Shown in pieces: positions 33,999 to 34,999 of a DNA stretch of 48,086 nt (position 1 is the stretch's first letter; each line of letters starts with the position of its first letter). The notes under the pieces are model-generated. The model searched no databases. It saw only the letters and a list, made by a program, of their open reading frames with translations, and was not told the DNA's origin. This DNA is from Candidatus Nomurabacteria bacterium. GTDB lineage: Bacteria; Patescibacteriota; Minisyncoccia; Phycocordibacterales; UBA9973. The DNA lies in contig JACPLQ010000004.1 of assembly GCA_016186435.1 (NCBI GenBank), positions 1 through 48,086 on the forward strand, given 5' to 3'. A program made the position numbers and the translations under genes.

Positions 33999-34145
33999 TT
34001 ACAAGGTTAATCGTCTTTTGATTAGCAAGAGATTAGCAAGGACAGTCCTAGCTAGTCCCGAAGAATCAGTTCTTCCAGAATGAGCAAATGAAAAGGATGG
34101 TAAAAGGAATGCTATTAAGATTAGAACTGAGAGTATCTTTTTCAT
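33999..34145 (-). pseudogene. Secreted protein truncated by a repeat
   Basis: 48 codons. A clean signal peptide ('MKKILSVLILIAFLLPSFSF') is followed by 'AHSGRTDSSG', the usual start of small secreted YHYH-type proteins with His/Cys tails. From there the frame runs into the palindrome at 34033-34059 and then unrelated residues to a stop, so the functional tail is lost. The ATG is 2 nt after the stop of the gene at 34148-34399, so both were one operon. Confidence 0.55.
34033..34059. repeat. CTAGCAAGGAC palindrome, copy 3
   Basis: TTAGCAAGGACAGTCCTAGC followed by TAGTCCC. It is preceded by a partial unit (ATTAGCAAGAG). It interrupts the secreted protein gene at 33999-34145. Confidence 0.8.
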
Positions 34146-34444: not shown

Positions 34445-34471
34445 ACTAGCAAGGACTGTCCTTGCTAGCCC
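34445..34471. repeat. CTAGCAAGGAC palindrome, copy 4
   Basis: ACTAGCAAGGAC-T-GTCCTTGCTAG followed by CCC. It lies between tRNA-Asn and the small secreted protein gene. Confidence 0.85.
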
Positions 34472-34501
34472 TGGGCGCTAAACTTTTTGTAAAAAACATT
34501 G

Positions 34502-34573
34502 CTCCGGGGGTAGGGATCGAACCTACGACCAATCGCTTAACAGGCGACCGCTCTACCGCTGAGCTACCCCGGA
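34502..34573 (-). tRNA. tRNA-Asn (GTT)
   Basis: 72 nt. The acceptor stem TCCGGGG / CCCCGGA, D-arm GCTCAGCGGTAGAGC, anticodon loop CTGTTAA (anticodon GTT) and T-arm with GGTTCGATCCC all fold normally. The discriminator base is G and CCA is not encoded. Its first 10 bases overlap the end of the GIY-YIG gene. Confidence 0.95.
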
Positions 34574-34809
34574 ATAATTAATTTTTTAGTGAACCTTCTC
34601 CCTGCTGCACTTTTAAAATACTTTTCTCTTTTTCTTGCGTCAATAATATTATTATACTTCTCTTTGTACAGTAACCTCCATGGCATATATCTTTTTGTAT
34701 AATAAGACAATCCAGAATTATGCTCTTTCATCCTTCTTTCTAAATTATCTGTACTACCAACATAGAACTTTTCTTTTATTAAGCTTTTTAATATATACGT
34801 ATAAGACAT
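34564..34809 (-). CDS. GIY-YIG nuclease-domain protein (UPF0213-like)
   Basis: 81 aa, the full length for the small stand-alone GIY-YIG group. The motif reads 'YTYILKS..FYVGSTDNLERRMKEH', with 'YTY' and 'YVG' in place of GIY and YIG, followed by the conserved Arg and His. Most stand-alone members have unknown roles, while related domains are homing or repair nucleases. The last codons and TAG stop are read from the 5' end of tRNA-Asn. A split copy of the same tRNA end lies on the other side of the gene (34819-34868), so it may have inserted at the tRNA. Confidence 0.85.
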   Translation of the reverse strand: MSYTYILKSLIKEKFYVGSTDNLERRMKEHNSGLSYYTKRYMPWRLLYKEKYNNIIDARKREKYFKSAAGRRFTKKLIIPG

Positions 34810-34818
34810 AATATAATG

Positions 34819-34868
34819 TTGAGCTATCCGCCTCGGCTCGCAAGCCGATGCGAGACGGGCCCCGGAAT
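34819..34868. repeat. Split copy of the tRNA-Asn 5' end with a palindrome inserted
   Basis: TTGAGCTAT (34819-34827) and CCCCGGAAT (34860-34868) match TGAGCTACCCCGGAAT of the tRNA end, but they are separated by a 32-nt palindrome (34828-34859: CCGCCTCGGCTCGC.. form). The GIY-YIG gene lies between this copy and the real tRNA. Confidence 0.6.
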
Positions 34869-34999
34869 TTATTTAATTCTCTGAAGAACTTTCATTATCT
34901 TAGCAGAAAACATAGAAAAAACAATGAATAAGCTCGTAATTATTTAAGGCTGGGTATATAATTAAACTATTATTATGATAATTTGTTTTTCATATTTTT

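Follow-up and report, generated by a model that had tools for sequence, protein, structure and literature searches.

Integrative elements at tRNA genes, such as phages and genomic islands, duplicate part of the tRNA, and the gene stays whole; they use tyrosine or serine integrases, and usually the 3' end is rebuilt. Group I introns with homing endonucleases are found in tRNA anticodon loops, one example being the tRNA-fMet endonuclease (Bonocora and Shub 2001, as listed in PMC3984707). In fungal mitochondria, mobile endonuclease ORFs carry a duplicated 3' gene end (atp6 of Allomyces macrogynus; atp6, atp9, cox2 and nad3 of Glomus), and the ORF in atp9 is of the GIY-YIG type (PMC3630166). No splicing is needed there, because the ORF lies between the displaced gene end and its duplicated replacement (PMC3630166). 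In CPR bacteria, rRNA genes hold GIY-YIG-encoding insertion sequences that are not introns and that were placed outside the context of homing by their authors (PMC11270868).

The window analysed here is a stretch of 48,086 nt from a Candidatus Nomurabacteria bacterium (contig JACPLQ010000004.1). A tRNA-Asn gene in it (34501-34924, minus strand) is probably occupied by a compact mobile element with a GIY-YIG nuclease as its sole gene; this is the explanation that fits best, and its homing part is what we infer. On the minus strand, a putative promoter is followed by a broken 5' end of tRNA-Asn (below, the dead copy), the GIY-YIG gene and an intact tRNA-Asn (34501-34924):

34897..34924, minus strand: putative native promoter of tRNA-Asn (TTGTTTTTTCTATGTTTTCTGCTAAGAT), 58 nt before nt 1 of the broken copy; conserved motif, single match in the window
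34860..34866, minus strand: broken copy of the tRNA-Asn 5' end, nt 1-7 (TCCGGGG); sequence match and family-level split-copy test
34827..34859, no strand assigned: 33-nt GC-rich palindromic insert between tRNA nt 7 and 8 (CCCGTCTCGCATCGGCTTGCGAGCCGAGGCGGA, given for the minus strand); fold of -18.2 kcal/mol, MFE hairpin
34820..34826, minus strand: broken copy of the tRNA-Asn 5' end, nt 8-14 (TAGCTCA); sequence match
34564..34809, minus strand: GIY-YIG nuclease ORF, 81 aa; PF01541, E 2.4e-15; the stop TAG is tRNA nt 8-10
34501..34573, minus strand: intact (rebuilt) tRNA-Asn(GTT); ARAGORN and Rfam RF00005, 70 bits

The description in the initial annotation proved accurate throughout. It had read the GIY-YIG stop codon from the tRNA 5' end: TAG at 34564-34566 is U8-A9-G10 of tRNA-Asn, and the ORF runs into the tRNA without an earlier stop. 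The copy that it had placed beyond the gene was recovered on the forward strand as TGAGCTA (34820-34826) and CCCCGGAAT (34860-34868), a 7-nt and a 9-nt block (16 nt). The palindrome said to split this copy is the hairpin-forming insert of 33 nt at 34827-34859, which sits precisely between tRNA nt 7 and 8 with zero bases lost. Behind the nuclease gene, the complete tRNA-Asn starts exactly at nt 1. The split-copy score of the window (12, see below) ties with that of the best unrelated isotype. Taken alone, the 16-nt copy in the window is weak evidence; relatives were therefore examined, and the case rests on the family. Downstream of the tRNA, two small ORFs in the window are flanked by a 23-nt near-perfect inverted repeat (TAGCAAGGACAGTCCT..., 34034-34056 and 34445-34467).

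In the window, Rfam returned no group I ribozyme, the tRNA alone reaching threshold, and membership of the element in the group I introns was rejected on this ground. Around the window ORF no inverted repeats were found. The element was likewise not assigned to the transposons or insertion sequences with terminal inverted repeats, such repeats being absent from the window and from nearly all other members found at tRNA genes (the tRNA class). Between the two tRNA copies the GIY-YIG ORF stands alone; no integrase gene lies there, and assignment of the window element to the tRNA-site integrative elements was discarded. From the latter the GIY-YIG/tRNA elements differ in lacking an integrase and in rebuilding the 5' end. 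They share their target genes with group I introns and, in some members, the site as well (CTGT^TAA of tRNA-Asn, where Rfam introns occur in relatives), but the window is without a ribozyme and its tRNA is restored by 5' rebuilding, not by splicing. With the CPR rRNA insertions they share the phylum, the protein superfamily and a place outside introns; those insertions, however, lie inside rRNA genes, and the main text describing them says nothing of 5' rebuilding and contains neither the word tRNA nor any form of palindrom* (PMC11270868). The nearest precedent is the fungal mitochondrial ORFs: a displaced gene end, an endonuclease ORF and a functional replacement end are all present here, mirrored to the 5' end of bacterial tRNA genes. 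In fungi, the 3' end of a mitochondrial protein gene is replaced, often by one of foreign origin (PMC3630166), whereas here it is the 5' end of a bacterial tRNA that is rebuilt; its two copies are nearly the same and specific to the allele, and a palindrome interrupts the dead one. The literature searched on GIY-YIG genes and tRNAs in CPR bacteria does not describe this arrangement; most subscription journals lay outside the search, so its novelty is provisional.

Relatives were collected by DNA search (60 relatives) and by profile searches against genomes at order, genus and phylum level, among related Patescibacteria. All sequences were draft metagenome assemblies. HMM search gave a set of 179 distinct GIY-YIG ORFs. 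A tRNA lay downstream on the same strand (-70 to +150 nt from the ORF stop) in 59/179, a share of one third that is not an unbiased frequency, since the search profiles were built from tRNA-adjacent members. These tRNAs represented 22 anticodons and were mostly located within -37 to +22 nt of the ORF end; 21 of the 59 ORFs stop inside the tRNA. After removal of loci found through the tRNA-Asn DNA query, 51/169 retained a downstream tRNA. In the control placements (n = 179), tRNAs were counted upstream on the same strand (11), upstream on the opposite strand (1) and downstream on the opposite strand (0). Several genes of this GIY-YIG kind occur per genome. The window element belongs to a family that is widespread and in which the hairpin of the dead copy recurs regularly.

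For the split-copy test, 50 ORF/tRNA pairs abutting within 30 nt were used, and the stretch upstream of each ORF was searched for the tRNA 5' end with one insert allowed. The score was custom, and 1000 mismatched tRNA/locus pairs served as null. The own isotype gave the strictly best split copy in 38/50 pairs. A score of at least 12 was reached by 37/50 observed and 33/1000 mismatched pairs, a score of at least 15 by 27/50 and 3/1000, respectively; a clear own-isotype copy was not found in 12 of the 50 abutting pairs. Examples are tRNA-Glu (L047: GGCCCTATCGTC [35 nt] TAACGGTTAGGA), tRNA-Leu (L091: GCCGCGGTGGCGGAATTGGTAGA [20 nt] CGCAATAGACTCA) and, in the window's own genome, tRNA-Thr (L003: GCCGGCATAGCTC [39 nt] AGTTGGCAGAG). 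Dead and rebuilt ends differ in 21 of 837 bases. Of 33 testable dead copies, 26 match the allele at their own locus strictly better than any other and 4 tie, so the second copy was either made locally or the whole locus moved together; by the same count, a foreign origin of the replacement end was not supported. Dead copies end anywhere between nt 11 and nt 36, and a single cut site is thus not evident. A scan of control tRNAs produced 11 matches. Seven were duplicate copies of GIY-YIG loci, L153, L195 and L215 carry a GIY-YIG gene, and L026 looks like a decayed element.

At tRNA-Asn, leaders were compared by a motif test, as whole-length alignment is uninformative in AT-rich DNA. The motif taken as the tRNA-Asn promoter in this genus (TTGTTTTTT..TTCTGNTANNAT) lies about 58 nt before nt 1; its promoter function is putative and deduced from conservation. 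In most empty or intron-bearing relatives, it is found at -39 to -60 of the sole tRNA-Asn. At loci with two copies (the window, L012, L016, L019, L030, L034, L203), the motif stands before the dead copy and in no case before the intact one. The dead copy is, on this pattern, the old 5' end with its putative promoter, and the nuclease gene and rebuilt tRNA lie downstream. The motif position and the recurrence in the family both support the earlier proposal of an insertion that rebuilt the tRNA end.

Presence and absence of the element at one site were found among close relatives (tRNA-Asn, within the genus), with empty sites in L010, L011, L013, L015, L017, L018 and L020-L024. The initial annotation had named the same split copy in gene-less relatives as contrary evidence. 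The control scan flagged none of the empty tRNA-Asn loci, with the qualification that L016, L019, L030 and L035 carry other, different 5' pseudo-copies; since no intact GIY-YIG gene accompanies them, insertions of more than one kind use this place. In L016, L019 and L035, a structured stretch of ~120 nt without GIY-YIG lies between the 5' pseudo-copy (TTCCGGGGTAG) and the intact tRNA-Asn, and at its far end it looks like the tRNA 5' end in inverted orientation. Downstream of tRNA-Asn, L014, L015, L025, L027, L028, L033 and L043 carry inverted pseudo-copies of the tRNA 3' end, with a palindrome between acceptor and T-arm and, in several loci, a recurring motif thereafter (e.g. GAAGACC...GGTGTACTGAACCT). 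Further side observations are a LOOT RNA (RF03000, 83 bits) in L012 (1233-1354, minus strand), located downstream of the occupied tRNA-Asn at a distance of about 150 nt, and, downstream of tRNA-Gly in L045 (2-65, minus strand), a second tRNA-Gly(CCC)-like sequence with palindromes replacing the D-arm.

In many congeners, Rfam identifies group I introns in the tRNA-Asn anticodon, at CTGT^TAA (52-88 bits). The dead halves of L012, L014 and L034 end exactly at this intron point, and that of tRNA-Leu in L091 at the equivalent GACTCA. In L034 the dead half, GIY-YIG gene and rebuilt half are followed by a group I intron and the 3' half. L012, with three 5' ends in series, shows serial rounds of insertion. 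The GIY-YIG gene of L014 is frameshifted, and L026 has the look of a decayed copy. Group I introns in the tRNA-Asn(GUU) anticodon were recorded for L029-L037, L039 and L043; an ORF resembling an HNH endonuclease lies upstream of the ribozyme in L029, L030, L031, L037 and L038.

An insert in the dead copy is present in 33 loci (median GC 0.74) and is mostly palindromic. Its commonest palindromic form, the 20-bp CCTGCCTGCCGGCAGGCAGG, has 0-9 copies per genome in the genus and occurs elsewhere in the genomes too. Position (tRNA nt 6-27) and sequence both vary between lineages, so the palindrome was acquired repeatedly, and L014 holds two palindromes in one dead copy. The palindrome may have been retained for abolishing a recognition site or a direct repeat within the dead copy. 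Alternatively, an unrelated mobile repeat would have inserted into the dead copy at a later time and been retained, either for disabling a useless, misfolding tRNA half or for stabilising the insertion. This concerns the hairpin alone and is compatible with the main reading; we weigh it evenly, as the 20-bp form exists elsewhere in these genomes, sequence and position depend on the lineage and L014 holds two, while against it a palindrome this rare (0-9 per genome) is found at most 80 nt upstream of a GIY-YIG start in 5 of the 75 listed CCTGCCTGCCGGCAGGCAGG copies (0.02 expected), with an insert in 33 loci. Chance landing of the palindrome is excluded, and selection for it is possible.

The window protein matches PF01541 with 57 bits (cut-off 22.6; E 2.4e-15). 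Y5, Y16, G18, R26, H30 and E62 are invariant family-wide; the domain with catalytic Tyr, Arg and Glu that defines the GIY-YIG nuclease superfamily is thus present, and the proteins look as expected of an active nuclease. UPF0213, SLX1 and I-TevI were among the matches in a profile search against solved structures. When genome contigs were scanned with the window protein, only 5 distant relatives were found outside the window's group; a 60%-identical relative lies upstream of tRNA-Lys on the viral contig L222. In the protein tree (86 columns, many forks unresolved), the tRNA class and the inverted-repeat class described below each cluster, as do several target isotypes: a Leu group of five and Asn, Gly, Thr and Ser groups. 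The window nuclease and that of L063, from another family, both reside at Asn, and their hairpins occupy almost the same position.

Among 126 GIY-YIG genes that do not abut a tRNA, those bounded by terminal inverted repeats (L001, L002, L007, L053-L076, L114-L146 and others) form a sister class; its members often lie at the start codon of a protein gene, where ATGNN is duplicated and the start rebuilt. With a cut-off for the inverted-repeat score of at least 10, inverted repeats bound 83/126 of the non-abutting genes and 13/400 random placements; examples are ATCCCGTTAGAGAT...ATCTCTAACGGGAT, ACCCTGTTAAAT... and CCCCCACACCTTTTG.... In 36 cases, an ATG-started frame of at least 40 codons was found at the right end (6.5% at random positions). 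In 23 of those 36, a dead ATG (+1-4 nt) lies at the left end, often as a 4-7 nt duplication (e.g. ATGAA, ATGCAAT). In a separate count, inverted repeats were detected in 2/45 members of the tRNA class. L095 (tRNA-Val), L108 and L204 (both tRNA-Ala) are inverted-repeat elements in a tRNA 5' end, with that end duplicated. The repeats of L095 are CCCTCACTTGC...GCAAGTGAGGGG, and one copy with a GIY-YIG gene and a second, gene-less copy are arranged in tandem. Tentatively, and with somewhat more doubt than confidence, the small GIY-YIG proteins of Patescibacteria could be regarded as mobility enzymes of an undescribed superfamily of elements that borrow promoters at gene 5' ends. It would comprise a tRNA class (tRNA rebuilt from its first nucleotide, palindrome within the dead copy) and an inverted-repeat class (often at start codons, ATGNNN duplicated, frame rebuilt).

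For the occupied tRNA-Asn, the following course is proposed. On entry, the element would have cut the 5' half of a tRNA gene, in some members at the anticodon where group I introns also reside, and would have been copied in with the tRNA 5' end duplicated, which would keep the tRNA functional. Nuclease and tRNA would then be made as one transcript from the tRNA promoter, and RNase P would free the tRNA. Spread would follow when the nuclease cuts intact alleles in element-free relatives and the break is repaired (homing). Against this course it counts that the rebuilt tRNA has the sequence of the empty alleles and restores the uncut sequence; a simple recognition site within the tRNA alone would be cut in the resident genome as well. 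The dead copy is split by the palindrome, but protection would need recognition that spans the leader; the palindrome and the new leader before the rebuilt copy may guard against self-cutting or against recombining out. Homing-like behaviour is plausible given the site shared with group I introns in some members and the target-specific lineages in the tree. It is preferred because one and the same tRNA hosts related nucleases in different families, and because they also occupy the group I intron site.

A serious rival is transposition instead of homing, with the GIY-YIG protein acting like a transposase or integrase, the duplicated 5' end as a long target-site duplication, the palindrome as a leftover element end, and the tRNA and inverted-repeat classes as one transposon-like superfamily. 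The terminal inverted repeats of 83/126 non-tRNA relatives (null 13/400) speak for it, together with the 23 dead ATGs on the left and complete genes at the right-hand ATG (36 rebuilt starts, 6.5% at random); dead and rebuilt tRNA ends are near-identical and allele-specific like a target duplication, and both forms meet at tRNA-Val and tRNA-Ala (L095, L108, L204). We nevertheless think it unlikely: nearly all tRNA-class members, the window included, lack inverted repeats, transposases do not usually leave variable-ended duplications of 11-36 nt, and related members target the same tRNA isotype even across families, as under homing.

Domestication is much less probable still. A nuclease retained by the host behind the tRNA promoter for some benefit, e.g. 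repair or defence, would account for the conserved catalytic residues and for a profile resembling UPF0213/SLX1-like nucleases, but hardly for scattered presence at one locus among congeners, for the many different tRNAs or for decayed copies (frameshifted L014; L026). Long-term vertical conservation at a fixed site was not seen at tRNA-Asn in this genus. Finally, a generic GIY-YIG gene might stand beside a tRNA by chance, the copy being coincidence or a remnant of a tandem tRNA duplication. The window would allow this, its 16-nt copy scoring no better than the best unrelated tRNA, but the family data already contradict it: the excess is specific for strand and side, the copies match their own isotype and own allele, and the dead copies detected extend no further than about the anticodon, which sets them apart from tandem duplicates. 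We give this explanation almost no weight.

Tiny GIY-YIG nuclease genes have entered tRNA genes again and again in this group of ultra-small CPR bacteria, which points to a little-noticed kind of mobile element, one that occupies essential genes and leaves them functional. For annotation, it is a warning that hairpin-bearing 5' tRNA pseudo-halves in CPR genomes can be element scars. The target of each nuclease should be predictable from the neighbouring gene, and the family yields a testable set of very small (about 80 aa) candidate site-specific nucleases. It is a possible reason why GIY-YIG genes are common in CPR bacteria. It also suggests how, with no intron involved, a selfish gene can live inside tRNA genes that a very small genome needs: the promoter is taken, and the host gene is given a new start.
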